Below, piece by piece: positions 2,415 through 39,756 of a stretch of DNA of 41,010 bases. Positions within the stretch are counted from its first letter, which is position 1, and each line of letters begins with the position of its first letter. Origin of the DNA: Candidatus Uhrbacteria bacterium (GTDB taxonomy: Bacteria; Patescibacteriota; Patescibacteriia; UBA9934; GWF2-40-263); contig JACQWJ010000014.1 in assembly GCA_016209325.1 (NCBI GenBank), positions 1 through 41,010 on the forward strand, given 5' to 3'. The position numbers and the translations under genes are program-made. A model generated the notes under the pieces. That model ran no database searches, was not told where the DNA came from, and was given only the letters and a program-made list of their open reading frames with translations.

Positions 2415-2870
2415 TTAGGCGCTGCGTTTGGAAGAAGAGACGCGGATCGTGATCGAAGCCTCGAATCCGTGAGGGAGCTGCACGGTTGCCGGATGCTCTC
2501 CGACGTCCTTGATGGAATGGGTCAGCTGGATCATGGAGGCGTCCACGGTGAACTTGGCCTTCTTGAGGGCGCGGGCCACCTCTTCCGTCGTCACGGCCGC
2601 GTATAGCACCCCCTGCTCGTTCGTTTTTTCCACCAGTTCGAGCTCGAAACCCTCCAACTGGGACGCGAGCTTGGCGGAAGACTTGAGTTCCTTTTTTCCC
2701 TCACGTTCGGCACGGTCTTCCCGTTCCTGACGTTCCCGAAGCGCCTCTTCTGTAGCCTGCACGGCCAGGTTTTGTGGAAACAAAAAATTGCGCGCGTATC
2801 CTTCGGACACCTCGACGATGGCGCCTTCCTTACCCTGGGTTTTGACGTCGCGCAGGAGGATTACTTTCAT
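2415..2870 (-). CDS. rplI: 50S ribosomal protein bL9
   Basis: bL9 is a two-domain protein of the large ribosomal subunit. The N-terminal domain begins [20 protein letters not shown] and includes [11 protein letters not shown], the rRNA-binding signature. A charged helix (about 50-75) connects to the C-terminal domain, which ends near residue 151. Length is normal. Many Patescibacteria have lost bL9, so its presence is mildly informative about lineage. The gene is 16 bases after ribH. No Shine-Dalgarno is visible; instead an extended -10 (TGATATACT) overlaps the ribH stop 10 bases before the ATG, so rplI may also be expressed as a leaderless mRNA. Confidence 0.96.
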
Positions 2871-2880
2871 AGCCAGGGCC

Positions 2881-2889
2881 AGTATATCA
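2881..2889 (-). promoter_or_regulatory. Extended -10 promoter of rplI
   Basis: The minus strand reads TGATATACT, a TGn-extended -10 whose TGA is also the ribH stop codon. It ends 10 bases before the rplI ATG, so the transcript would start within a few bases of the start codon. There is no good -35, as expected for an extended -10. Confidence 0.5.
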
Positions 2890-5814: not shown

Positions 5815-5843
5815 AGCATACCCGACCCGCAGACGCCCATCAA
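5815..5843 (-). promoter_or_regulatory. Promoter of the ctpA operon
   Basis: The minus strand reads TTGATG, 17 bases, TATGCT. The -10 ends 9 bases before the ctpA ATG, so the transcript would start at or next to the start codon. It overlaps the region serving the divergent PEGA gene. Confidence 0.6.
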
Positions 5844-7537: not shown

Positions 7538-8366
7538 TTATCGGTGTGTCAGGATGCGGAATACCACACGTCCATACATCACAGCCATAGTTCCGAATGG
7601 AAGCGCGTTACCTGCCTGAAAACGCGCAAAAATCGGCCGTACCTTCAAGCGAGCGTAGTATTCCTCGATACGCTCCATGCCATTGCCGTGGGGCAAACGG
7701 AAATAAGCGAGACGGTTGAGGAAGACAGTCCATACGGCGTCACCAAGACTGTAAGACGATCCCGCGCACCATGGGGTTTCTTTCAGTCGCTCATCGAGTT
7801 CGGACAGGAGTATGTCCAGACGTTCGCTCAACTGCGTCCGACAGACCGGATCCATAATCGACGCTTCCCATGCGTCGATGTCGTCCAGTCGGGCTTAGTA
7901 CCGCTTGGCAAGATCGGGATGCGTGTCGCGTAGGCGCGTCAGCGTCCGACGTCGGACGGAAAAAGATTTTCGAATCAGGACACCGCATGGGTCCGCGGAC
8001 GTTACCGTACGAGAACTCCCGCATGGGAAAGGCGTCCAGTTTTTCCAGCCATGTCTCCATGGCCGCGCGTTCGTCTGCATCGGAAGGAGTCAGTGCATCC
8101 AAAGGGGCAAACGTGGAATCGAGATACCGAATGATCTGGAATGCATCCGTAACGATGTGATCTCCATGTTTCAGGGTAGGCACAACCCCGCGCGAATTCA
8201 GACGGACGTACCATGGCTCGTAATTCTCCAGTCGGGGTCCGATGTCGATAACGATCCCGGCGTACGGAATGTCTTTTTCTTCCAAAACGAGACGGACAAT
8301 TTGGGAATAGAAGGACAGGGGAAAATGATAGAGCGTGACATTTGTATCCGTCGTGTGCAGGGGCAT
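7538..8366 (-). pseudogene. Glutathione S-transferase-like gene, broken
   Basis: The N-terminal part (8366 to about 7988) reads as a GST thioredoxin-fold domain: NVTLYHFPLSFYSQIVRLVL, a cis-proline motif region RGVVPTLKHGD and DAFQIIRYLD. Near 7985-7988 the reading frame must shift by one base to continue as VLIRKSFSVRRR...HPDLAKRY. A TAA stop (7897-7895) then interrupts the same frame, which continues as ARLDDIDAWEASIMDP into the C-terminal helical domain ending at 7538 (SYSLGDAVWTVFLNRLAYF). One frameshift and one nonsense codon make it non-functional unless they are assembly errors. The intact protein would have been about 275 residues. GSTs are unusual in Patescibacteria, so the gene may be a transferred one in decay. 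Confidence 0.82.
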
Positions 8367-8376
8367 AGCACTTTCT

Positions 8377-8406
8377 ATTCTATCTTTTGTGAACACAGAT
8401 GGCCAA
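8377..8406 (-). promoter_or_regulatory. Promoter of the GST pseudogene
   Basis: The minus strand reads TTGGCC, 18 bases, TAGAAT, with the -10 ending 10 bases before the ATG at 8366. The -35 is weak. Confidence 0.45.
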
Positions 8407-8439: not shown

Positions 8440-8445
8440 TAGAAT
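8440..8445 (+). promoter_or_regulatory. Candidate -10 of the ABC-F gene
   Basis: TAGAAT ends 11 bases before the ATG at 8457, with a poor TTTTAT at -35 distance. There is no Shine-Dalgarno site, so a leaderless start is possible. Confidence 0.4.
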
Positions 8446-21302: not shown

Positions 21303-21331
21303 AGTATACCAACGTGTCCCAACCGGGACAA
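21303..21331 (-). promoter_or_regulatory. Promoter of nrdR-htrA with internal palindrome
   Basis: The minus strand reads TTGTCC, exactly 17 bases, TATACT, and the -10 is also TGn-extended (TGGTATACT). A palindrome TGTCCCAACCGGGACA (21315-21330) covers the -35 and much of the spacer and could be an operator. Transcription would start within about 6 bases of the nrdR ATG. Confidence 0.75.
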
Positions 21332-22624: not shown

Positions 22625-22714
22625 AGGATACCTTATGCACGAACCAATTTCTTAGAGTTCAAGTTGAACAATATTTTTATTCAAATTTCGCTTCGTTGTG
22701 CAAAAATCGGATAC

Positions 22715-25986: not shown

Positions 25987-26637
25987 CTAGAAATTCGGAA
26001 CGTCAAACAGCTTTCCAGGACCATTCGGATTGTACCCGTTGGAAACTTCTGCGCCGTCGAGAAAGCCGTCGCCGTCGGTATCCGGATGCAGGGGATTGGT
26101 CTTGTACACTTCCACCTCTTCCCGATCGAACAAGCCGTCGGCATCGGTGTCGGGCTGGGAAGGACTCGTACCGACTTCGGCCTCCTGCGCGTCCGACAAG
26201 CCGTCCTTGTCCATGTCGGGTTCAACGACCGAGGTCGGTGTGGGAAGGGGCGCTACCGGAGAAGGAACCGCCGCATCCGCGGCGGAATCGGACGCCTTGC
26301 CGGCCGCGCCTTCGGCATCCCGGACAGGTTCGGCCGCCGTGGAAGGCGTTTCGGTTGAAGCGCGACCAGCCAACAAAACGTAGGCAAGACCGGCTGCGAC
26401 GGCAATCGCAGCCAACGCCCCGATCACAAGAAAAAGGGGCTTCCAGGGAACGGAACGCGGGGAACGTTCCTCTTTTTCAGGAAATAGCGCGGCTGGTGGA
26501 GAAAAAGCCGCGGGAGAAGCAGGGACGGTTCCGGACGGTATGGGACTGCCCATGGGAGGGACGGGCGGAAGCGGCGTGGGCGCACCTCCTTCCATAGACG
26601 CAAACATGTCTTCCGGAGGTTTTACGTTTTCAAACAT
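25987..26637 (-). CDS. TSP3-repeat single-pass membrane protein, 216 aa
   Basis: A paralogue-like membrane protein of the same design: Pro-rich N-terminal tail (1-65), one transmembrane helix at about 68-90 (LFLVIGALAAIAVAAGLAYV), an Ala/Pro/Ser linker and three consecutive D-x-D-x-DG-x-x-D-x-x-E units (DMDKDGLSDAQE, DTDADGLFDREE, DTDGDGFLDGAE). These are typical calcium-binding TSP3 repeats. It ends soon after the last repeat (NGYNPNGPGKL), without the extra domain of the 337-aa protein. It is the first gene after the promoter at 26695-26723, in an operon that ends with ftsA. Confidence 0.8.
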   Translation of the reverse strand: MFENVKPPEDMFASMEGGAPTPLPPVPPMGSPIPSGTVPASPAAFSPPAALFPEKEERSPRSVPWKPLFLVIGALAAIAVAAGLAYVLLAGRASTETPSTAAEPVRDAEGAAGKASDSAADAAVPSPVAPLPTPTSVVEPDMDKDGLSDAQEAEVGTSPSQPDTDADGLFDREEVEVYKTNPLHPDTDGDGFLDGAEVSNGYNPNGPGKLFDVPNF

Positions 26638-26694
26638 ACGATCAAATGGTGAGTGAAGCGCGTGCTTCTTCGGTCATGGAACGGATCGCCTTCC

Positions 26695-26723
26695 AGTATA
26701 ACGCTATCGTTTCCCTTCTCCAA
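26695..26723 (-). promoter_or_regulatory. Promoter of the TSP3-ybeY-dgkA-ftsA operon
   Basis: The minus strand reads TTGGAG, exactly 17 bases, TATACT. The -35 lies inside the end of the 291-aa gene. The leader to the ATG at 26637 is about 50 bases. Confidence 0.65.
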
Positions 26724-27579
26724 GGGGATTGTAGCCAGCTTCCGTTTCGGCACCATCTGAAAAACCGTCGCCATCGGTGTCCGGATTGGTCGGATTCGTC
26801 CCCCAAAAGGAGATTTCCTCCGTGTCCGTGAGTCCGTCGGCATCGGTATCTTCCGCCCGGTCGTCGGTTCCGAGAGCCGCCTCTGTCTTGGCACTGAGAC
26901 CATCATGGTCGATATCGCCCGTTCCGACCGCGTCCAGACAGGCCGTACGATCCCCTTCGTTGGACAAGGCCTGACACTGGAGGGGATCGCCGCTTGCAAA
27001 CGCTTGCTCAAAGGCCTGCCACGCCGCGCAAACGGACGCGTCCAGCGCCGCCGCGCAGCCCTCCGTGCGCGCCAGGCGCCGGGAAACGGTCTCCACACAG
27101 CGGTCCCGTGCGATGACACTTGTAACCTTCGCGCACAAATCGAGACGCTGTTCGGCGCGGGCGGCCTGCAGATACACCGAATCCGCACAGGATTGGCGCT
27201 TGGCTTCGTCTGTGATTTCCCCGCAGGCTTCCGGATCATGCTGGGCCACGGCGACACCCCAGACGCAGTCCTCTACCGCTTCGGCTTCGAGCTTGCCGCA
27301 GACGCTCGCGGATCCCACGCGAAGCGCCGCTTCTTCTACACGTTCCTTCCGGCAGCCGTCCGGATTCGGAGACGCATCACAGACGGGAAGCGACCGATCA
27401 AGTTCCTCAGAGGCCGTCTGCACAGCCGCCTGCTGACGGAGCTCGACGCGGCGCCCGGCCACAAAACGCGCGAGTCCCCAGATGCCCGCGACGAGAACGG
27501 TCAGAATGGCAATTCCCAAGAGAACCCGCTTCCACAGGGGGAATGACCGGAACGGAAGCAGATGTTCAAACGTATCCAT
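26704..27579 (-). CDS. Cys-rich TSP3 membrane protein, 291 aa
   Basis: A membrane protein of unknown function. A short basic N-terminus precedes one transmembrane helix at about 17-43. The extracytoplasmic middle part (about 65-210) is mostly helical with pairs of Cys 12-13 residues apart that repeat (CGKLEAEAVEDC, CGEITDEAKRQSC, CAKVTSVIARDRC), which suggests a solenoid stapled by disulfides. The C-terminus has TSP3 units (DIDHDGLSAKTE, DTDADGLTDTEE, DTDGDGFSDGAE) and ends NPLGEGKR. It starts 12 bases after the giant gene and shares the TSP3 end with the two downstream genes, so it may link both groups. Confidence 0.78.
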   Translation of the reverse strand: MDTFEHLLPFRSFPLWKRVLLGIAILTVLVAGIWGLARFVAGRRVELRQQAAVQTASEELDRSLPVCDASPNPDGCRKERVEEAALRVGSASVCGKLEAEAVEDCVWGVAVAQHDPEACGEITDEAKRQSCADSVYLQAARAEQRLDLCAKVTSVIARDRCVETVSRRLARTEGCAAALDASVCAAWQAFEQAFASGDPLQCQALSNEGDRTACLDAVGTGDIDHDGLSAKTEAALGTDDRAEDTDADGLTDTEEISFWGTNPTNPDTDGDGFSDGAETEAGYNPLGEGKR

Positions 27580-27591
27580 ATGAAGACGACG

Positions 27592-30500
27592 TTATTCGAC
27601 CGGGCAGTACGTCAGGTTGATGTCACTCAGACGCACAGTTCCCGTGCCTGAAAAACTGAGACGCACGGGGATCGTCCATTCTCCTGTAGCCTTGCAATCA
27701 AATCCCGTCGGAAACGGCAAGACGACATCATCGCCTTCGGTGACCACCCCAGAAGTAAACTGAGTTTCCCCGCCGAATTCGGTCGTAAAACCGACCGTGA
27801 CCCCGAGAATGCTGTCCACGATGGTCTGGTACATCCCCTCGAGTTCCTCGGCAGTCGCGGCACTATAGGCGTACTCGACGTTGTCCTTCGGTTCGCAATC
27901 GTCGCGATCCTCATACACGGGGCAAGAACTGCCGCATGCGGAAGTGCACTGGCTCGTACAGACGTCTTCGCATTCCGTGTCCGTCACCGTACATGTGTCT
28001 TCGCATGCATTAAATTCATCGACACACACCTCATCACAGGGTCCACACTCCGCGACACATTCCGTATAAGCTTCTTGTAACAAGCCGGTACACGTCACCT
28101 CGACACAAACACCGCCGCAGTTGTCCGTACATGATTCAAGCGAGGTCCCGCAATCATCCAAGCATACCTCGTCCGTCACCGTTCCTCCATCACACTCGGC
28201 CGCACATTCCGTATTGCAAGAGTCTTCGCATGCGTTACATGTGCCGCAAACATCGCTTGAAAAATGGGCCATGTAGCCGATGAGATCAGCGTCGCTCGTC
28301 ACGGCGGCCGTAAAGACACTTACCCCGTCGCTGATCAAGTCGTCCCGGACGGAAACGACTTCGGGAACGTCGATAACGTAACTTCCAGCCAAGTTGACGG
28401 TCGGATCGCCATCGCTGAGCAGGATGACCACCTTGTGGTCCGCGGTCGAGCTCGCGAGGACCGTTTGGGCGCATTTCAAGCCAGCCGCAGTCGGGGTCGC
28501 GCCGTTTGCGCGGTCGACATAGGTCTCCACGCCCGTGTCCGGGTCGTACAAAATTTCCCGTTCGACCGTCGAGGAACCGAGACCATGATCGATCCAGGAG
28601 AGAGCTGCTTTGGTCGACGTTCCCAAATAACAACCATCGCTATTTTCGATCGTTGTATCCCCGTCGGTATCGACGCCGTCCGTAAGCGTATTGGTAAAAC
28701 TGACGGTGGAGATACGCATTTGAGCCGCGTTGCCAGCATACTCATCAAACAGATCCTTCACAGCCTGGACGGTGGAGTCCACGGTTACCTCAATCCGGGA
28801 ATCGCCCGTCTGTGAATCCAACGTCGTATTCATACTACCCGAAAGATCCGTAACGAAGACCACGTCGACGGACGGGGGCGTCACGCCCGACATATCCACG
28901 TCGGCAGTGACCTGGGTGCCGACCGTACAGGCGGGCATGAAGAGAACGGCCGTGTCCGGACTTTCGCCGGAAAGATAGCTGTAGAGCTCCGCCGACGTCT
29001 GCTTGGTCGCACCCGCCAATTCGGTCTGAATGAGGAGCGCACTCTGCTCGTAGGTAAAGGGGCAGGAGGAATCACAAGAATTCGCGCAGGAGGCGCTTAC
29101 GCAGGTCCCCGCCGTCGTCCCGGCGTCGGTATTCGTTGTCCCGCAGCGCGCATTTGAAGCCGTGCTACCTGCCGCGCACGGCAGCCCATTGTAATCGACG
29201 ATAGAAGCGGTGTCGCCGCTCCCAAACAGCTGGGATCCACTGTCGCATACCCCAACGCCCGCTGTGCACACATAACCCGCCGTTTCATCGCAATCGTCAT
29301 TTGTGGCGCATGTGCCTGTCACGGCACGCTCACTCGGCGTATCCGACACCTTGAAACAGCGCATGGGCAGGTCGTCGGCGTCGCAAAACTCATCCCCGTT
29401 CACGACCGTGTCACCGCAGTAGGCTCCGGACACGACCGCGTATTGGCAGCGGACCGTGCAGTAGGCACAGGTGTCTTCGTATTCCGCGGTGCAGGCGACA
29501 CCGTTTTCCCCGCCCTCGTCGCAGGTTTCCTTCCCCTTGTACGTCGAACCGTCGCCGCAGACGTTCAGGGTGCAGGCGTTCGTACAAGCATCGGTACTGT
29601 CGGTATTGCCGTCGTCGCAGGCCTCATCGCCCTCGACAAGACCATTGCCACAAGCCTGGCTCCCACCAACGCAATCGGTCCAGCCGTTCCACGTGCAGGA
29701 CGGATCACTTTCCGGGTTGTCGTCGCACGTTCTCGAACGTGTCAGTTGGTAGGAAAACGCCGTGTCACACTTCCCTTCCTCCGTGAGCATCACTGTGCAT
29801 CCCGAGTTGGCGCTGCACTTCGTGGAAGAGACGTCACAGTCGGTGTCTTCGGTGCAGGCATCTCCCGTATTTCCGGAAGTACAGACCGAGGCAAGAGGAC
29901 AGACATCACCTCCTTCCCCGCATGCGCTGTTGTCACAATCCGCGTCCGTCGTGCACGGATCGTAATCGTCGGCGGATCCGCACAGACGTCCCGAGGTGGA
30001 CGCGTATTCCCCGTCACATTGCTCGTCCCCGTTCAGCTCGCCGTCGCCGCAGGAAGGACCAGGTTTCGCACAATCAAACGTACAACTGGTATCGAAATCT
30101 TCGGCATACTGTCCGTTCGGGGCCTCGCAATGCAGGGACGAGGAAGACCAGGCCCCGGCGTCCATGGCTGCTACATCGCTCCCACAATCGCAGGCTTCCC
30201 CGCCCGCAATGCTGCCGTCGCCACAATAGAAGGCGGTGGCAAGCGAACAGTCCTCCCCACACGCGCCATAAGTGCCATTCTCCGACCCGTCGTCGCAATC
30301 CTCCCCCGGGTCGATCACGCCATTCCCGCAAGCGTAGGGAGTGCAGACCACGCCAGCCGCCTCTGCTTCGGATTCCGTCTGATAACGAGAGCAGTCGGAA
30401 ACACATCCGGCAGAGAGTATTCCATCAACGCCATCTGAGGTTGTACAAGGCAATGGGTCATCCTGACCGATTTCGCAAGACTCCGTCGAAGACACGACAC

Positions 30501-33500
30501 CATCCCCGCACAGACCAGAGCTTCCAATCGGAACCCCGTCGCAGCGCTGGCCGTTGGCGTAAAAACCGAGCGGGGAGCTGGCCCCGGCATACTCGGCGTA
30601 GATAGCGCCATGATCCGTCTCATCCCGGTCAATCGGATAGGCCCACGTCGCTCCTTCCCCGTATTCAAGCTGGAAGTACAGGTCGTAGGATTCACTCGCC
30701 ACGCTCTGGAGCAAATAGACGTGAGAGCCTTCGGAACACGAGAACGTCCCTTCAGAACCGTTCCAACAATAGGTCTCGTCAGATCCTTCGGGACAGTCCA
30801 CAAACACGTTCAAAGGATCCTCAGGCAACGCCGTTCCCAAGGCGTTCCCAAGTGCCGCAGACCAGGAGGGCCACGTGCTCGCGGTAAAGCCCCGTAAGAA
30901 CGTATTTGCGGACAAGGAGGGAACGTCTGGCAAGCAAGTTTCCTCTCCTGGACAGGTCTCGTCGGCGACGCAAGCCTGTCCTTTTGTTGAGGAACAATGA
31001 CCATGGTCTTCGCCGTAGGCATCAAGAATGTCCTGGAAGCGGGAGGCATCGGTCAGGCGCCGCATATCGCGCGTCAACTTCGCCTTTTCCGCGTCGCACA
31101 CGGCGTCCGTAAATTCCGCCGTCGTTCCATCGCTGTAGGTGACCTCCGCACAGTCCTCGTCCGAGATGCAGACAATGAACTCCTCGGTCACGGGATCCTG
31201 GACGTACGCACCGTCCGCGTGACACACGTTTAGATCCGTCACGGTGTCATCATTGGCGTTGAAGCTCCAAACGCTTTGGATCTGTGTGGCGATATCCTTC
31301 GTCTCGGACGAGGCATCCTCGTTCACGGAAATCACGTACACATTCGGATAGATAACGCTTCCCGACTGGTTGGCGGCAGAAACGTAGAGCGTATCCTCGT
31401 TTTGGACCGCCTCATAACCGTCCAGTTCAAGCGAGCTGGCCGAACCAGCAAACACCTCCTCGTACCATCGATCCGGGGACAAATAGTCGGGGTTGGAGAA
31501 CACACGGACACCGATCGCGTCATCCGTGCCATCGACAAGGAAAAGCAGCTCCTTCGAGACGTTGGACAAGGGAGTCTGGGGCGTTTCAACGACCGTCAAA
31601 GCTGGAAGGAGTTCCTCTCCGTCACGACAGTAATAGAAGGAAAAATTGGTGTAGGGATCCGACAGACCGAAAGCGGAGGCGTTGTCCGCCGTGTCGGCAA
31701 AGGGAAACGGCAGGGCGTCTGGATCGGGCCATGGGTGCTCGCACAGAAACGCCGTCAACGAAACCGTTCCCGTCACCGCGGAGCCGGTCGTTCCGGACAG
31801 CGTGTCCACCGTGACCGTCGCTGTGGCCGCAGCGGTCTCCTGGCCGTTGGCTACCGCCGTGGCGGAAGCGGACACATCATCTTCCCCCGAGACCGAAATC
31901 GCGTTGGATGCATCCGTATCTGGAACGCTTGAAACCCAGGACCAGACCCATTCGTAGGCTTCGGGGATTTCCTGAATCTCCTCGCGGGTGGCGCCATGCA
32001 AGGTATAGGGAGTCGCAGCGAGCGTATGGAGCTCCCCGGCTGTTTGGAAAAATTCCGGGGACGGGTCGTCGAAGTCGCTGGTGGTCTCTTTGCCTTGGTC
32101 GACCGTCCCGACGTATTCCAAGGCGCAGACTTCGGTTCCGACCGCAAACGTGCTCGTCCTGCCTTCCACGAGGCCGACACCGTAGATGCTGGCAACCCCT
32201 TCCACGTTTTCATCCTCGATGTTCGTATCGCCTTCCACCACCAGTTGATAGGTGGCATTTGCCTCAAGGAGGTCTGTGTACGTGAGCCGGGCTTTCGAGC
32301 CTCTCTCGATCTGTTCAACGTCATAGGAAACCGGAATCCGGCACGAGACCTCTGCCGCCGAGACCGGATGGAACAGACGGGCAATTCCCTCCACAATCCA
32401 GTGCCAGGCGCGGACCAGAAGACGCGCATCAGCGTCGCTCGTGGCGGCCACGGAGACGTCGTATGTCTTGGGGCAAAGCGTCAGGTAGTTGGAGTCGTCA
32501 ATGACCGTCCCGTTTACGGAGACCAGTTCCAAAAAGAGTGTCGCCTCAGTCTCCCCAGTTCCCCCATCAACGGTGCGGACAAACGATTCCTCGTCCATCA
32601 TCTGGTCAAACGAGACCCAGATGGCGGTATTCCGACACAAACCCGACTCGTCCTGGGACGGACTGGTCTCCACGACTGTGGGACGCTCAAAGCAGCAGTT
32701 GGCTTCTCCACAACCGTATTGAACCGTGTCTCCGCAGGCGTAATCGGAGGCGCACGAACAGTCCAGGGTCAGGGTGGCAGAACCGGAAATCCCAGATGCG
32801 GTCTCGGTCGCTGTCACCGTCGCTGCGGCCGATCCCTCTCCGCCCGCCAGCACTTCCTGCGGAGCTTCCTCGGTAATTTCCGCCACAGCAAACGAAGCAA
32901 TCTCCGTCCCTGCTGCGACGGCATCACATGCCTCGCCTGTCTCTCTGGCGCCGTCGACACAGATGGAAGGCACCTCGTAATAGATGCTCGACCCCTCAAA
33001 CAGACAAGCTTCAGAACACCCATCATCGTCTTCCGTGTTTCCGTCGTCGCAGTCCTCGCCGGTCTCGACGCATTGGCCGAAGGCGTTGCACGCCCGGGAG
33101 GCACAGTCCGCGTCCTTGGAACAGGTCAGCGTGTTGTTGCCACAGGTTGAGGCATAGAGGCTGGAAGACCCCTCGTTCCGGCAACTGCTCGAACAGCCAT
33201 CGCCGGATACGGTATTGCCATCATCACAGCCTTCGCCTTCCCCGAGAACGCGGTCCCCGCAAATGGCGTACAGCTGGGTCTCAGGAACGGATCCGAGGTT
33301 AAGGCAGTTAGCAGAACAATTGTAGGAAGCATTGGCATCCCCCCAGTCGCACTCTTCACCGCCAATGGAGTCGCCTTGCGCGACCTTGCCGTCGCCGCAA
33401 TCGTACGTCGTACCCGCTCCCTCGTTCAAACAAAGATCTGAACATTTGTCGTTTGTCAGACTTCCGCCGTCGCATTCTTCGCGCCCTTCCCGTTTCCCGT

Positions 33501-36500
33501 TCCCGCAGCAGTTGACCGCATCCGAACTCGCGCAGGCGACAACCCCCTCGATTAGGCAAATGGACGAGCAACCGTCCCCGTCGTTCACATTGCCATCGTC
33601 GCAGTCTTCCCCCGGCTCCACACATTGGCCAAGGTCGTTGCAGTGGGCCTCCGACCCGTAGCCCGCGCACTGTGCATCTGAGGTGCAAGCAGTCGCGTTG
33701 TTGCCGCACACCGCGAGGGGCGCGCTCGAGCCAGCATTCACGCACGAGCTCGAACAAGAGGCGGGAAGGGACTCGCTCACGAGAATCTTCCCGTCAGACA
33801 AAAGGTCGGCCACATCGGCTTCGGGAACCGCGTCCGGATCATCCACGGCCCCCCACGCGGACCAGGTATAATCCTCCGCCTGCAGGCGCTGACCATTGTC
33901 GGAACACGCATCGGGAGAACCGTACGGAACCGCGGAAAACTTCTGACGGTCCCCGACAAGGGAAAGTTCCGCCTCGCTGGGAGACACCTCGACGCGGCTC
34001 ACGGTACACACCTCGTCCTTGGTCGTAAACGTCCAGGAACGATCGTTGCCGTATGCTAAATCCGTTGAACCTTCCGAGAGGGGAACGCCGCTTTCCGACA
34101 GGCTTTCCCCAGATACCACGACGCGGTAGGAAGCGTCCTTTTCGAGCGTCTGACCTGGGTGGATGGTGAGCGTGAGGAGGTCCGGATCGTAAGCCACGGA
34201 CCGGTCGCTCACTTCGCTCAGCTCTTCGGAAGCGCAGGCCGGATCTTCGCACAGATACAGGCGTACCATCGAATCGCCCGCGGTGTCATATCCCGAAAAG
34301 GTGTCCTGCATGGAAATGTTAAACTGAGCCCCAATCTCGGCATTGATGCACGCTTCGTCGCAAGACGGCCAGAAGCTCGTGATTTCCGGATCGGAAAAAT
34401 TGACGGTGAGCTCGCCCGCATCGCTGACGTCGAATTCCGTGAGTTGTCCCGTGATGAGAACGGGGACCCCGGGCTTGGTTTCGGCCAGGGGAAGGACCTC
34501 TGCGCCGCAGGCAAACAAGGTCGCGATCTCGGCCTTGTCCTCGTCGCTCGAGGAAAAGTCCCAGGTATATTGGGAACAGGCGAGAATGGTGCATTGGTAC
34601 TCGGCAGCGATCGGAGAGGCGGAGTACGCCACCTCTTTTTTCAATTCAGTAGCCGTGTATTCAGCTGGTGTGATATACACCCCTCCAACCGTGCATGGCT
34701 CGTCGTCCGAAGCGGTCTCAAAGAACCAAGTATAATCGTCGGCCAAGAAAGCACCCCCAACACTTTTTACACCATCCTCTCCCGATAGGATCGTCACGCG
34801 GTAACGGCTTCCGGACTCCAGGCCTTCCGCGGGATCCCAGACGAATGCTGTGGCCGAAACACTCGTCGGATACGTAGCGGGAGACATGGTCACGGACGTC
34901 GTTTCGAGACAACTATCATCTAGACATTTCTCCACGCGCACCGTGTCAGGCGTGAACGAGGCAGCATCCATGGATTCCGTAAACGACGCACTGACGCTCG
35001 TGTTGACACAGACGTCTTTTCCGCCTTCCCAATATTCCCAGGGCGTGGGTGAGAGATAATCGTCACTGCATGCGATGACAACCTGCGGCGTATCGGGCAG
35101 GTCGCCGGTCGAAAAGACGTAGGCGTAGTGGGAAACGGGCTGAGCCTCCTCGCACTGGCCATCGGGCCGACAGGCGCCGTCGGTACAGCAGGCTTCCCCG
35201 CTCTCGCAGGAAAAGTCGACGTCGCACATCCCAATTTCAAAATTCACGGAGTTAGAAAATTGTGCATCCACGTCCTTGACGAAGACCGGCCCAGTGCGGG
35301 CCCCTTCGGGAACGCGAAGCGGATCGCTCGTCGTCCCGGAAATCTGGGTCGAGGTCCAGTCTTTTGGAAACACGTCTTTATCCTCAAAGAACGTCACACT
35401 TCCCGCTTCGGTTTCAAACCCTTCCCCATACACCGTGACGTCCGTCCCCGAAGGACCCGCGTCGGGTTCTAAGGCACAGATGCCCGGGCCCGCTTCCCCC
35501 TCGATGACTTCGAAATCAACAGGGTCAGAAACGACCCCATCCTCGCCGCGCACAACCCACAGATCGTGGAGAACAGCTTGGAGCGCGCTGTCGTCCGACA
35601 AGTCGTAGGTCTCCGGCACTTTCACCAAAATCATCCCGTCATCCCAAAAATCGGTCCCACAGACATCCGGAAAGGACGTATCGGCCAAGGCCCGTAAATC
35701 TGTGTCTTGGTTGCGGAAACGCACGGTACCGGGAACGGTCCCGAAGTCGGACCCGTAGATCGTAACGTATTGGCCGACCGGCCCGGCCTGGCCGTCCTCC
35801 TCGCACGTATCACCCAACGTACAGTCCGTGTCCTCTGTGCACATGATGGCGTCGCCTGTGCCGGTGCAACGCAAAATTCCGCTCTGCACATCGGAAATGA
35901 TGGGAGGGCTGTCGGACGAAACCGTGGAAGCAATTTCGAATGCCAACGTATTGGATCCTTCGCGAGTTTCCCCGTCCCCGACGAATAATTGCAAGTCGTA
36001 GGGACCACTATCGAGCAACGGCACAATCGCCTCCAGGTTTTCCGCACTCCACGCGGGATAGCTCGAGGCGGAAGAAGTTCCAACGTAGAGCGTCGAGGAC
36101 CCTTGCGCATCCCCGAAATTGTTGCCAAAGACATCGATGACGTCCTTGGCACTGCCCGAAGCGGGAGACACTTCGCATAGTCCGGGACGAACCGTGGCAT
36201 TGACCACAAAGTCGCTGATCACAGGACCGTTATCGTCGTCCGTCCGATCGGCCAACTGCTCGGCGGTCAGGAGACGGAGCGGACCTCCAGGAGCCTGTTC
36301 CCCAAGCTGAATGATCACCTGACTGTCGGACCACGTGGCATCGCACTGGGCGTACGGAACGTGAACCACGTCGTCGGCCGAATCGTCGGGATCGCCCAGA
36401 AAAACAACCGTACCAGGCTCGTCACCGAATCCGTCTCCCGAGACGGTGATCAGGTTACCAGGAGCGCCATCTCCCGGGGAGACGCGCTGGATTTCGACGT

Positions 36501-37812
36501 CCGCAACGCACACGCCGTCCTCGCACGATCCGGAAGAACACTCACTGTCATCGGTGCAGGCATCGCCGTCACACGCGCCACAATAATATTCACTATCGTT
36601 GTCTCCCCCACAATCGACATCCGTCTCGAAATAGGGATCTCCCGCGTCCAGAACGCCGTTGTCACAGGTCGCAGAACGGAGCACGACGTCAATCACCGCA
36701 GCCTCTGCGGAGTTTCCCGCACAATCATACCCCTCGGCGTCCAAGGCATACGCTTCATTCATCACATAACCGCTCGTGTCCCAAGCCCCGTAAAAATAGT
36801 TGGCTTGAGAAAGAGCCCCGGCCAGACTTTCGTCGAGGCCTGAAGTGTAGATGGTGTCTCCCTCCAGTCGAAAGGCGACCGAGGAAACGCCCGAATCGTC
36901 ATCCGCTTGTGCCTGGAGGAGTGCCTGCTCACCGGCATAGACCGAATCACCATCATCCGGATCGGTCATGGCCATGGTGGGGGCACTGACGTCAATGCCG
37001 CTCCCCGTCGTGAAGTCAAACGAGCAGGGATAGGTGGTCGTACAAGCGAGACTGCGACCCGACGTGCTTTTGAGAAGAGACGAATCCAAGCGAACCTCGT
37101 ATGCGGTATCTGCCTCAAAACACGCTACCGTGCTGCCATCTGAGGCGGTACATGTGGCAGTCGGCGTAAACGTGACGCGGTTCGTCGAAACGGCAAACGT
37201 CCCCGGGACCGCGTCCCCGTCTGCCAGAGAAACGACAATCCCCGGTTGCTCCTGGACCGTCGCGGCAGAGACATTCTGACTGAACACGAACTGAAGCTCA
37301 AGGTTGCGGAGCACCGAAGCGCAAGCCGTATTCAAGGAACGCAAGACGAACGTGGAGGAGACGTCCGACACGTCCTCGTATTCCCCTTCCCCGTCTTCCT
37401 CACTACTCACGCTCCCTCCGACCGCTTCCGTCATGCGGGTAATCAGGTACTGCGCCACGGCAAACGACGAAAACATGATGGCCGTGCCGATCATGGCGTT
37501 CGCAACAAACATCTTGGCCTTGCGAATCTTGGTCTCATCCCCACGGGACATCATCCAGAGATAGCCGCCATACAAAACGAAGCAAACCGCGACAATGCCT
37601 AGGAAGCCCAGGAATGCCCGAATGAGCTTGGCAATCACGAGGGTGATATCCTCCTGTCCAAAACCGGCGGTTTCCGCGAACGTCTCCGGCGAAGCGTCCG
37701 CAAAGGTCTCGTCGGCATTCAATGTCTGGGCAAGGGCTGGCAACACCTCGAACCAACCGGTCCCTGAGGCCACTGCAACCGCGAGGCAGCATGCAATAAT
37801 CCATTTTTTCAC
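27592..37812 (-). CDS. Giant multidomain surface protein with VirB2-like N-terminus
   Basis: A 3406-aa protein starting at GTG 37812. Order, approximate residues: signal peptide 1-29; two-helix VirB2/TrbC-like module (helices 62-88 and 102-125, loop SRGDETKIRKAK); Ig-like domain 155-275; Cys-rich segment 382-434; about four IPT/TIG repeats 440-865 (GNLITVSGDGFGDEPGTVVF, GQYVTIYGSDFG); Ig-like domains with the Big_5 pattern (SASFTESMDAASF) 900-1310; DUF4215-type Cys repeats 1350-1605 (EDCDDGNVNDGDGCSSICL); further beta domains 1625-2430; a second Cys-repeat block 2430-2800 (CGNGVIDPGEDCDDGSENG); VWA domain from about 2977 with metal-site motif DLSGSM, ANGATPTAAG and LLSDGDPT. A 118-residue insertion with 24 Cys (about 3186-3310) splits off the last VWA helix. 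It may act in adhesion. It lies 12 bases after the 643-aa gene. Confidence 0.85.
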   Translation of the reverse strand: MKKWIIACCLAVAVASGTGWFEVLPALAQTLNADETFADASPETFAETAGFGQEDITLVIAKLIRAFLGFLGIVAVCFVLYGGYLWMMSRGDETKIRKAKMFVANAMIGTAIMFSSFAVAQYLITRMTEAVGGSVSSEEDGEGEYEDVSDVSSTFVLRSLNTACASVLRNLELQFVFSQNVSAATVQEQPGIVVSLADGDAVPGTFAVSTNRVTFTPTATCTASDGSTVACFEADTAYEVRLDSSLLKSTSGRSLACTTTYPCSFDFTTGSGIDVSAPTMAMTDPDDGDSVYAGEQALLQAQADDDSGVSSVAFRLEGDTIYTSGLDESLAGALSQANYFYGAWDTSGYVMNEAYALDAEGYDCAGNSAEAAVIDVVLRSATCDNGVLDAGDPYFETDVDCGGDNDSEYYCGACDGDACTDDSECSSGSCEDGVCVADVEIQRVSPGDGAPGNLITVSGDGFGDEPGTVVFLGDPDDSADDVVHVPYAQCDATWSDSQVIIQLGEQAPGGPLRLLTAEQLADRTDDDNGPVISDFVVNATVRPGLCEVSPASGSAKDVIDVFGNNFGDAQGSSTLYVGTSSASSYPAWSAENLEAIVPLLDSGPYDLQLFVGDGETREGSNTLAFEIASTVSSDSPPIISDVQSGILRCTGTGDAIMCTEDTDCTLGDTCEEDGQAGPVGQYVTIYGSDFGTVPGTVRFRNQDTDLRALADTSFPDVCGTDFWDDGMILVKVPETYDLSDDSALQAVLHDLWVVRGEDGVVSDPVDFEVIEGEAGPGICALEPDAGPSGTDVTVYGEGFETEAGSVTFFEDKDVFPKDWTSTQISGTTSDPLRVPEGARTGPVFVKDVDAQFSNSVNFEIGMCDVDFSCESGEACCTDGACRPDGQCEEAQPVSHYAYVFSTGDLPDTPQVVIACSDDYLSPTPWEYWEGGKDVCVNTSVSASFTESMDAASFTPDTVRVEKCLDDSCLETTSVTMSPATYPTSVSATAFVWDPAEGLESGSRYRVTILSGEDGVKSVGGAFLADDYTWFFETASDDEPCTVGGVYITPAEYTATELKKEVAYSASPIAAEYQCTILACSQYTWDFSSSDEDKAEIATLFACGAEVLPLAETKPGVPVLITGQLTEFDVSDAGELTVNFSDPEITSFWPSCDEACINAEIGAQFNISMQDTFSGYDTAGDSMVRLYLCEDPACASEELSEVSDRSVAYDPDLLTLTIHPGQTLEKDASYRVVVSGESLSESGVPLSEGSTDLAYGNDRSWTFTTKDEVCTVSRVEVSPSEAELSLVGDRQKFSAVPYGSPDACSDNGQRLQAEDYTWSAWGAVDDPDAVPEADVADLLSDGKILVSESLPASCSSSCVNAGSSAPLAVCGNNATACTSDAQCAGYGSEAHCNDLGQCVEPGEDCDDGNVNDGDGCSSICLIEGVVACASSDAVNCCGNGKREGREECDGGSLTNDKCSDLCLNEGAGTTYDCGDGKVAQGDSIGGEECDWGDANASYNCSANCLNLGSVPETQLYAICGDRVLGEGEGCDDGNTVSGDGCSSSCRNEGSSSLYASTCGNNTLTCSKDADCASRACNAFGQCVETGEDCDDGNTEDDDGCSEACLFEGSSIYYEVPSICVDGARETGEACDAVAAGTEIASFAVAEITEEAPQEVLAGGEGSAAATVTATETASGISGSATLTLDCSCASDYACGDTVQYGCGEANCCFERPTVVETSPSQDESGLCRNTAIWVSFDQMMDEESFVRTVDGGTGETEATLFLELVSVNGTVIDDSNYLTLCPKTYDVSVAATSDADARLLVRAWHWIVEGIARLFHPVSAAEVSCRIPVSYDVEQIERGSKARLTYTDLLEANATYQLVVEGDTNIEDENVEGVASIYGVGLVEGRTSTFAVGTEVCALEYVGTVDQGKETTSDFDDPSPEFFQTAGELHTLAATPYTLHGATREEIQEIPEAYEWVWSWVSSVPDTDASNAISVSGEDDVSASATAVANGQETAAATATVTVDTLSGTTGSAVTGTVSLTAFLCEHPWPDPDALPFPFADTADNASAFGLSDPYTNFSFYYCRDGEELLPALTVVETPQTPLSNVSKELLFLVDGTDDAIGVRVFSNPDYLSPDRWYEEVFAGSASSLELDGYEAVQNEDTLYVSAANQSGSVIYPNVYVISVNEDASSETKDIATQIQSVWSFNANDDTVTDLNVCHADGAYVQDPVTEEFIVCISDEDCAEVTYSDGTTAEFTDAVCDAEKAKLTRDMRRLTDASRFQDILDAYGEDHGHCSSTKGQACVADETCPGEETCLPDVPSLSANTFLRGFTASTWPSWSAALGNALGTALPEDPLNVFVDCPEGSDETYCWNGSEGTFSCSEGSHVYLLQSVASESYDLYFQLEYGEGATWAYPIDRDETDHGAIYAEYAGASSPLGFYANGQRCDGVPIGSSGLCGDGVVSSTESCEIGQDDPLPCTTSDGVDGILSAGCVSDCSRYQTESEAEAAGVVCTPYACGNGVIDPGEDCDDGSENGTYGACGEDCSLATAFYCGDGSIAGGEACDCGSDVAAMDAGAWSSSSLHCEAPNGQYAEDFDTSCTFDCAKPGPSCGDGELNGDEQCDGEYASTSGRLCGSADDYDPCTTDADCDNSACGEGGDVCPLASVCTSGNTGDACTEDTDCDVSSTKCSANSGCTVMLTEEGKCDTAFSYQLTRSRTCDDNPESDPSCTWNGWTDCVGGSQACGNGLVEGDEACDDGNTDSTDACTNACTLNVCGDGSTYKGKETCDEGGENGVACTAEYEDTCAYCTVRCQYAVVSGAYCGDTVVNGDEFCDADDLPMRCFKVSDTPSERAVTGTCATNDDCDETAGYVCTAGVGVCDSGSQLFGSGDTASIVDYNGLPCAAGSTASNARCGTTNTDAGTTAGTCVSASCANSCDSSCPFTYEQSALLIQTELAGATKQTSAELYSYLSGESPDTAVLFMPACTVGTQVTADVDMSGVTPPSVDVVFVTDLSGSMNTTLDSQTGDSRIEVTVDSTVQAVKDLFDEYAGNAAQMRISTVSFTNTLTDGVDTDGDTTIENSDGCYLGTSTKAALSWIDHGLGSSTVEREILYDPDTGVETYVDRANGATPTAAGLKCAQTVLASSTADHKVVILLSDGDPTVNLAGSYVIDVPEVVSVRDDLISDGVSVFTAAVTSDADLIGYMAHFSSDVCGTCNACEDSCNTECAAECDGGTVTDEVCLDDCGTSLESCTDNCGGVCVEVTCTGLLQEAYTECVAECGPCDEVCVDEFNACEDTCTVTDTECEDVCTSQCTSACGSSCPVYEDRDDCEPKDNVEYAYSAATAEELEGMYQTIVDSILGVTVGFTTEFGGETQFTSGVVTEGDDVVLPFPTGFDCKATGEWTIPVRLSFSGTGTVRLSDINLTYCPVE

Positions 37813-37824
37813 AGGAAGCCGTGC

Positions 37825-39756
37825 TTACTCTTCTTGACCAAGGACTGTCCCTCCGAGCGTCTTACAGGCCGTGTCCGAGGGGATACCGTCGCAGCAGTAG
37901 GGCTGGGATGCGGTCGCACAGAGCGGAAACGCGTCGCTTGTTGTAGGTCCATAGGAGGGATACATGCAGATCTGGTAGGCGCTCTTCACGCCGTTTGTGA
38001 TGACGGGATAATAGGCGTAAAACGTCTGGGCATCCTCGTCGCTTTCCCAAAATTCCGCGTGCTGGATAACGGCCTTCGTATAGATCGCCGATTCTCCCTC
38101 GTCCGGCGTCTGGGAGTCACTGTCCAACAGTTCCTGCTCAAGCGAAAACCAAAGTTCCTGCGCGTGATCGGGAACCAGTTGGATATTCGTGGAATTCAGA
38201 GTAGAAGATTGCATGAGAACACTCTCCCCTTCGTCCGCGTCATAGCTGAACGTGATCTCGACAGCGGCGTTTACATCGACCTCCTCTTCCCCAATCTCCG
38301 GACGCAAAAGGGAGATGTGTGGCACCGCGTCGTTAATCTCGGACGATGTGTCGAACTCCCAGGCGTAGTCGTCGCCTCCGAAGTCGGGAGTCCCGGGACC
38401 CTCGGCTTCGCCGTCACCGTCGCCATCGAGGGAGTTTCCCGCTGCGTCGACCACACCGTCAAACAGGCCCCCGACCACGGAGGCTTGAGGAGCGTCCTCG
38501 CTGAGCGTGGCGGCATGGGCCTGGACCTCAATCGCAGCACTCGGTGGAAGGCAGTAGATGGTGTCGCCGCAGGGATCTTTGCTGCAGGCGTCGTTTGAGG
38601 TGAATTCCACGGTACGATAGACGTTGCTGATCGCGAACGTTCCCTCCACGTTCGTGTCAGATACAACCACTTCGACGTTGTCAAACGTCTTTCCTGCATC
38701 GGGCTCGTAGGTCCCACTCAAGGCCACGGGGTCCATGGCTTCGTTGAACGTAATCTGGATCGTGATGTTCCTCGCGTACGGATCTTCGGACGCCAACGGG
38801 ACGGCAGAAACCACATACGGAGGCGTAAGGTCGACTTCGGTGGAAACTTCGAATGTCCATTGATAGCCCTCAGCATAGGCTCCGGAAAACGCCGCACTGC
38901 CGTCTGTTTTCAGGATCGTCGACCCCAAGAAGACCGTATAATTAACATCTTCCACACCGTCTCCGAGAAGCTCAGCCGGATCGAAGACGAACGTCGTAAA
39001 GTCGTCGCTGTAGGTCATACGGACGCCGAGGCTCGGAAGCGCCACGTCAGCGGGATCGATCCCTGATTCCACGTCCACGGCATCGGTAGGATAGATGAGG
39101 ACCTGATCCGTGTTGAGATATTCCGGCGTGGCGGGATCGCCATCGTAGGCCGCCCCATCGGCTTCCTTGAGAAGGGACGTGGGGTCAATCGCCTCCTTGA
39201 ACGTGACCATGATGCGGGTATTGCGCGGGACGTCGATCGCGTTCCGTGCAGGATAGTGGCTCTCGATGATGCCGGACCCGAGCGATCCCGAAAGCGGCTC
39301 GGTATAGGTCGTGGCTGTGGTCGTGGTCACCCCTCCGCCGAGACCCGACGCGGCCAGCAGTCGGTTCAGCACGTAGCTCGCAAGGGAGTAGGAGGAAAAG
39401 ATAAGAATGATGCCGATGATGGCATTCGTGATGATCGTCTTCGCCTTTTTGGTCTTGGCCGGATCGCCCCCGGCCACCATGTACAGATAACCGGCATAGA
39501 CGATGAGACAAACGAGGAGTACGCCAAGAACAGCGAGCACGGCCCGGATGATCCGCGCGATCACGATAGGCAAACTCTCGGTCGCAAGTCCGGAATTCGC
39601 CCCCAAGGCTTCAAAATTGTCATTTTGCAACTGCGCCAAAAGCGGAACATGGGAAGGAACGAGCAGGCTCATCGCAAACAAGGCCGAAAACGCAAACAAA
39701 CCAAAAAATTTTTTGGTTCGATGCCTCGAATCGCGTGGGGGAGCGCTCTGCGGCAT
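37825..39756 (-). CDS. VirB2-like module fused to Ig-like domains, 643 aa
   Basis: An exported protein with the same N-terminal plan as the giant protein. A hydrophobic signal (about 17-42) precedes a two-helix module: helix at about 65-92 (IIRAVLAVLGVLLVCLIVYA), loop AGGDPAKTKKAKTI, second helix about 108-130. A threonine-rich linker follows. The remainder has two Ig-like Big_5-type domains (NTRIMVTFKEAIDPTSLL, NITIQITFNEAMDPVAL) and a Cys-containing C-terminus (SQPYCCDGIPSDTACKTL). The function is unknown; a surface subunit that co-assembles with the giant protein through the shared module is my inference. A -10 candidate lies about 41 bases upstream. Confidence 0.82.
   Translation of the reverse strand: MPQSAPPRDSRHRTKKFFGLFAFSALFAMSLLVPSHVPLLAQLQNDNFEALGANSGLATESLPIVIARIIRAVLAVLGVLLVCLIVYAGYLYMVAGGDPAKTKKAKTIITNAIIGIILIFSSYSLASYVLNRLLAASGLGGGVTTTTATTYTEPLSGSLGSGIIESHYPARNAIDVPRNTRIMVTFKEAIDPTSLLKEADGAAYDGDPATPEYLNTDQVLIYPTDAVDVESGIDPADVALPSLGVRMTYSDDFTTFVFDPAELLGDGVEDVNYTVFLGSTILKTDGSAAFSGAYAEGYQWTFEVSTEVDLTPPYVVSAVPLASEDPYARNITIQITFNEAMDPVALSGTYEPDAGKTFDNVEVVVSDTNVEGTFAISNVYRTVEFTSNDACSKDPCGDTIYCLPPSAAIEVQAHAATLSEDAPQASVVGGLFDGVVDAAGNSLDGDGDGEAEGPGTPDFGGDDYAWEFDTSSEINDAVPHISLLRPEIGEEEVDVNAAVEITFSYDADEGESVLMQSSTLNSTNIQLVPDHAQELWFSLEQELLDSDSQTPDEGESAIYTKAVIQHAEFWESDEDAQTFYAYYPVITNGVKSAYQICMYPSYGPTTSDAFPLCATASQPYCCDGIPSDTACKTLGGTVLGQEE

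Follow-up and report, generated by a model that had tools for sequence, protein, structure and literature searches.

Translation in this uncultured bacterium appears to start largely without Shine-Dalgarno (SD) pairing, at AUG codons that are mostly preceded by U, and a minority of the genes that stand first in their unit would be transcribed from a -10 promoter placed so close to the ATG that the message is nearly leaderless. On the strength of the sequence comparisons described here, we regard this account as a whole as quite probable, and the near-invariant U at -1 of AUG starts is apparently a trait of the entire class to which the organism would belong.

The window, i.e., the whole stretch of 41,010 nucleotides that was analysed, is one contig (C6) of the source assembly G000 (766 kb in 37 contigs, 89% complete), and the genome-wide counts cover stretches of G000 totalling about 599 kb, window included, on which 505 genes were called. 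Gene starts were predicted by a simple self-trained hexamer-based gene finder, which is blind to the -1 base and which was also run on stretches of a same-genus genome (G001), a same-family genome (G020), and other Patescibacteria. The genes of the window include those for CTP synthase, an ABC-F protein and enolase as well as rplI, ribH, ctpA, pgk, pyk, htrA, nrdR, ftsZ, ftsA, ybeY, yqeY, and rpsU. The closest named relatives of the enolase belong to Ca. Uhrbacteria and to a Buchananbacteria MAG, and from such named neighbours we infer a placement near Ca. Uhrbacteria in class ABY1 of the Patescibacteria (CPR); Uhrbacteria and Magasanikbacteria are grouped as 'ABY1(UM)' within the CPR (candidate phyla radiation) class ABY1 in a published study (PMC12641178). 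The window also holds a 3406-aa ORF with a GTG start (27592-37812, minus strand) beside a T4SS-pilin/Big_5 protein (37825-39756), with TSP3-repeat proteins in the same neighbourhood (25987-27579, minus strand), and the region 25987-39756 (minus strand) is a predicted large surface-protein cluster.

The original prediction had missed a general feature of these genes, which is the T immediately before the ATG. In G000, it precedes 90% of 128 within-operon ATG starts, compared with 8% of 2,526 in-frame internal ATGs taken as a control, and it is found at 74% of the first-in-unit ATG starts with a same-strand gap of at least 40 bases and at 65% of the divergent ones. All 17 four-base overlaps (ATGA) have it, as do 43 of 44 genes whose gap is 10-24 bases, 19 of the 21 tabulated starts in the window, and 62 of the 69 ATG starts confirmed by homology, meaning that the alignment of G000 with a relative begins at the first residue predicted in both. 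The relatives follow the same pattern within operons (82% vs a 23% control in G001; 75% vs 2% in G020). The start of rplN is well conserved, and T stands at -1 of this gene in 27 of the 30 genomes of the class sample and in 7 of the 30 of the phylum sample; two of these seven belong to the same class, which leaves 5/28 outside it, and moving the two loci gives 29/32 in the class vs 5/28 elsewhere (Fisher p 8e-9). In small samples, the share was 33-82% in other ABY1 orders and 0-52% outside ABY1, and T stands at -1 of 22% of annotated E. coli starts and 29% of D. radiodurans plasmid starts. The signal is at its strongest within operons, and the simplest reading is therefore that U(-1) works at the level of the mRNA, during translation.

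SD sites are not enriched genome-wide in G000, where SD-like 4-mers at the usual distance precede 11% of first-in-unit starts, 12% of within-operon starts, and 14% of control internal ATGs, while the same script recovers 43% vs a 3% control in E. coli. Most within-operon genes have neither an SD site nor a -10 element. An SD peak is present in the first-in-unit genes of G001 and G020, and the 16S 3' tails of all 12 relatives that were read end in CCTCCTTT; the anti-SD was read from relatives, and the G000 assembly itself contains no 16S. Since the two relatives have this peak and the relatives' 16S keeps CCTCC, SD initiation has not been lost from the lineage. Several candidate causes were rejected. 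The CCTCC of the relatives' tails speaks against anti-SD loss, and the presence of a protein with four S1 domains against loss of S1. A match to IF3 (infC) was not found in G000, yet one occurs in 51 of the 57 genomes sampled from the class, and the missing IF3 is most likely a gap in the 89%-complete assembly.

The original prediction rested on five genes of the window at which a -10 hexamer ends 9-12 bases before the ATG and an SD site is absent. All five hexamers are present at these spacings, and none of the genes has an SD-like 4-mer at the usual distance. The elements concerned are as follows:

2881-2889, minus strand: rplI extended -10 TGATATACT (TGA-TATACT), hexamer 10 bases before ATG 2870; from sequence and orthologues
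2868-2870, minus strand: rplI start codon ATG, with T at -1 (2871); T at -1 in 30/30 orthologues
5815-5820, minus strand: ctpA -10 TATGCT, 9 bases before ATG 5805; from sequence and orthologues
5838-5843, minus strand: ctpA candidate -35 TTGATG, 17-base spacer; 4/6 match to TTGACA, weak
8377-8382, minus strand: -10 TAGAAT of a GST remnant, 10 bases before ATG 8366; from sequence
8440-8445, plus strand: ABC-F gene -10 TAGAAT, 11 bases before ATG 8457; from sequence and position
21303-21308, minus strand: nrdR -10 TATACT, 12 bases before ATG 21290; from sequence and orthologues
21326-21331, minus strand: nrdR candidate -35 TTGTCC, 17-base spacer; weak match
22625-22630, minus strand: TATCCT at ftsZ, touching the ATG directly (spacer 0)

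T stands at -1 in all five genes. For ctpA, ATG 5805 was chosen as the start although the longest ORF opens at TTG 5877, because relatives mostly align from about residue 25-42. The GST remnant is real: it is split between two frames (7538-8366, minus strand), runs divergently to the ABC-F gene, and still has an intact start next to the -10; the GST N-terminal domain (PF13417) lies in 7791-8366 (minus strand) and a GST_C_2 piece in another frame (7538-7855). TAGAAT is not above chance in the window (4 found vs 6.3 expected), and thus both TAGAAT cases depend on position alone. The 17-base spacing to a -35 that had been put forward for ctpA and nrdR is correct, but the weight of the -35 is slight, with only 6 of 17 near boxes in G000 matching TTGACA in 4/6 positions at 16-18 bases. 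The idea that a few genes have good ribosome-binding sites held for rpsU, where an SD-like 4-mer was confirmed, and the 337-aa ORF has one besides. The TATCCT at ftsZ has GG in front, as do many ctpA boxes, and a promoter at this place would give a transcript that begins within the predicted gene.

The upstream regions of rplI, ctpA, and nrdR were compared in about 30 genomes each of the same order, with first-order Markov shuffles (500 runs) as a control. A TATAAT-like hexamer lies 7-12 bases before the ATG in 20 of 30 rplI orthologues (shuffles: mean 1.6, max 5), and 17 of these 20 boxes have TG one base upstream (TGnTATAMT). The corresponding numbers are 21 of 30 for ctpA (mean 1.6, max 6), where the box is mostly TATCCT or TATTCT, and 11 of 29 for nrdR (mean 2.3, max 7). 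The ctpA start was picked with a preference for T at -1, which makes its -1 count circular but not its box count. Since the genomes are related and hence not independent of one another, the significance given by the shuffles is somewhat too high, although this is mitigated by the spread of the genomes over four families of the order. The position of the box is kept across species inside upstream sequence that is otherwise poorly conserved, and SD-like 4-mers are rare (rplI 1/30, nrdR 0/29, ctpA 3/30). Judged from these orthologues, the -10 placement is a real and conserved feature.

The genome-wide profile of TANNNT, which had been proposed as a check, gave the expected outcome, with a peak at spacers 9-10 in the first-in-unit genes of G000 that have T at -1. 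Among these 180 candidate genes, TANNNT occurs 14 times at spacer 9 and 12 times at spacer 10, against 3.6 per position (26 vs 7.2 expected, p ~ 5e-8), and strict hexamers occur 8 and 6 times against 1.3 per position (14 vs 2.7), the value of 1.3 being the mean of TATAAT-like hexamers at spacers 14-45. The TANNNT peak is present in G020 as well (19 vs 2.6, p ~ 4e-11), and when the first-in-unit genes of G020 were searched for motifs de novo, with no prior on position, cTAnaAT at 8-12 came out on top; in G000, the same search ranked T-runs and A-rich words above the -10 motif. Strict boxes at spacers 7-12 number 17 in the 180 genes and 0 in the 74 first-in-unit genes without -1 T, and the predicted starts of this latter kind look enriched in errors. 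Without the -1 T filter, the excess at spacers 7-12 is weak in G000 (17 vs about 12 in other windows, p = 0.08) and clear in G020 (21 vs 5.6, p 5e-7). Boxes in this range precede 17 of 254 first-in-unit genes and 5 of 128 within-operon genes of G000. In the homology-confirmed set, which is small (41 genes), the -10 peak was not conspicuous, and pooled other ABY1 orders had no -10 excess (14 vs 13.7). Leaderless initiation had been suggested to be common in this organism, which is not borne out in that form: in first-in-unit -1 T genes, the excess over background amounts to about 5% (strict) to 12% (TANNNT) in G000 and 14-22% in G020, and the -10-adjacent genes are thus a minority. With an excess of no more than about 12% in these genes (22% in the relative), 'common' is an overstatement.

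The distance between box and start codon bears on what kind of message would be made. In sigma-70 promoters, 6-7 bases separate the -10 hexamer from the transcription start; with a spacer mode of 9-10, a leader of about 2-4 nt is therefore predicted. We infer that such messages in G000 would be near-leaderless and not strictly leaderless, and the T kept at -1 by the -10-adjacent genes fits a transcript that includes this base. TATAAT-like boxes in non-ABY1 Patescibacteria (G098, G110, G154, G159, and G198; L268-L287) peak at spacers 6-9, which suggests strictly leaderless genes elsewhere in the phylum; the difference from this order is modest (medians 8 vs 9, p 0.0035). TGn often precedes the near boxes (10/17 in G000, 11/20 in G020), as opposed to 8/43 and 6/21 of the boxes further upstream, and this extension is a more characteristic partner of the near boxes than a -35. 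G001 had no such contrast (2/20 near vs 12/72 further upstream).

We propose that translation start in the order of Ca. Uhrbacteria would proceed largely without SD pairing and that the tetranucleotide UAUG would mark the start sites. A minority of first-in-unit genes (roughly 1/8 here and 1/5 in the relative) would use a -10 promoter close to the ATG, often TGn-extended (TGnTATAMT), with the end of the hexamer 9-10 bases before the ATG. The mRNA would then start about 2-4 bases before the AUG with U(-1) retained, and the AUG (UAUG) may be recognized directly by 70S ribosomes, or by 30S subunits with fMet-tRNA, while U(-1) may pair with A37 of the initiator tRNA. A bolder version, which we regard as possible but less likely than not, would hold for ABY1 as a whole: SD pairing would largely have given way to UAUG as a start word of four bases, recognized through an extended anticodon of the initiator tRNA, and promoters set about 3 bases further back than in strictly leaderless bacteria would let the near-leaderless mRNA keep the U.

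The near boxes could also belong to strictly leaderless mRNAs like those of Deinococcus and mycobacteria, transcribed from the A of the ATG after an unusually long discriminator of 9-10 bases, in which case the -1 T would be the usual pyrimidine before a purine start. For D. radiodurans, it is proven that -10 boxes next to an ORF serve as leaderless promoters (PMC12340547), and the spacer mode of 6-8 in the sampled non-ABY1 Patescibacteria equals the strict-leaderless distance. However, the longer mode of 9-10 in this order argues against such a reading, as does the fact that -1 T is strongest at within-operon genes, in front of which transcription should not begin, and we consider it unlikely. 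Somewhat less likely still is that these are ordinary promoters lying near genes by chance in a compact genome, with leadered transcripts from further upstream doing most of the work. The TATAAT-like hexamers that also occur further upstream and the weakness of the G000 excess without the -1 T filter would be consistent with this, but chance placement agrees poorly with a sharp positional peak and with a position that is conserved across species in poorly conserved sequence. That the -1 T arises without selection, from mis-called starts or compositional bias, is very improbable: although the starts come from a home-made caller, that caller cannot see the -1 base, control ATGs have 8% T as against 90% at homology-confirmed starts, and rplN differs between the class and the genomes outside it. 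Start selection through UAUG, joined in a minority of genes by near-leaderless -10 promoters, is thus the reading that we prefer.

With regard to the tRNA partner of U(-1), an initiator-type tRNA-CAU with an unpaired A1.A72 is encoded at L032:17076-17152 (minus strand), and both tRNA-CAU genes on L032 have A37. This base is common and thus does not discriminate. The initiator-type tRNA of L032 has A1.A72 in place of the usual C1.A72, and a U29-A41 pair in the anticodon stem, which leaves it only two of the usual three G-C pairs of bacterial initiators; in G044, a genome of the same class, the tRNA has C1 and its stem differs. Our hypothesis is that pairing of U(-1) with A37 of the initiator tRNA probably underlies the UAUG signature, and the cause of the -1 T could also be something besides tRNA pairing.

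Extended codon-anticodon pairing reportedly aids initiation at particular genes, unlike the present case, in which U(-1) is close to invariant genome-wide and apparently class-wide. That U(-1) may pair with A37 of the initiator tRNA, beyond the anticodon, is a proposal of Esposito et al. 2003 (EMBO J 22:651), as cited in PMC9841429 and PMC9229432. Among other bacteria, the closest parallels are the TA-led (leaderless) genes, which according to Zheng et al. 2011 (PMC3160421) have TANNNT with its first T about 12 bases upstream, i.e., a spacer of about 6, and make up 19% of genes in Actinobacteria and 39% in Deinococcus-Thermus. Both cases combine TANNNT a short distance upstream (about 10-12 bases there) with the lack of an SD site in a minority of genes, and they differ in that the first T here lies at about -15/-16 instead of about -12 and a -1 T is superimposed; Patescibacteria are absent among the groups consulted in the TA-led table (PMC3160421). 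In Deinococcus-Thermus, the ORF-adjacent -10 has been shown by experiment to be a promoter for leaderless mRNA and concerns about 30% of ORFs (PMC12340547). The -10 hexamer likewise adjoins the ORF here, where it is known from sequence alone, but among first-in-unit genes whose starts are reliable it concerns about 5-12%, its spacing is about 3 bases longer, and it is often TGn-extended. Non-SD initiation in Bacteroidetes, Chlorobi, and Cyanobacteria goes with an A/U bias near -10 or a C just before the start codon (PMC5397173). Those groups likewise have little SD signal ahead of many genes but differ from the near-invariant U at -1 observed here, and Patescibacteria do not appear in the table of that study.

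In the open-access literature, we found no study of leaderless initiation or start-codon context in Patescibacteria, CPR, or Uhrbacteria, and translation start in CPR bacteria, which have reduced ribosomes and few cultured members, is little studied. TA-led leaderless genes are of an already known kind, and the -1 U signature could be the part that goes beyond it. If UAUG is indeed near-invariant, it would make the annotation of gene starts sharper across many genomes, offer a natural case in which to test extended codon-anticodon pairing, and serve as a guide for expressing CPR genes in other hosts.
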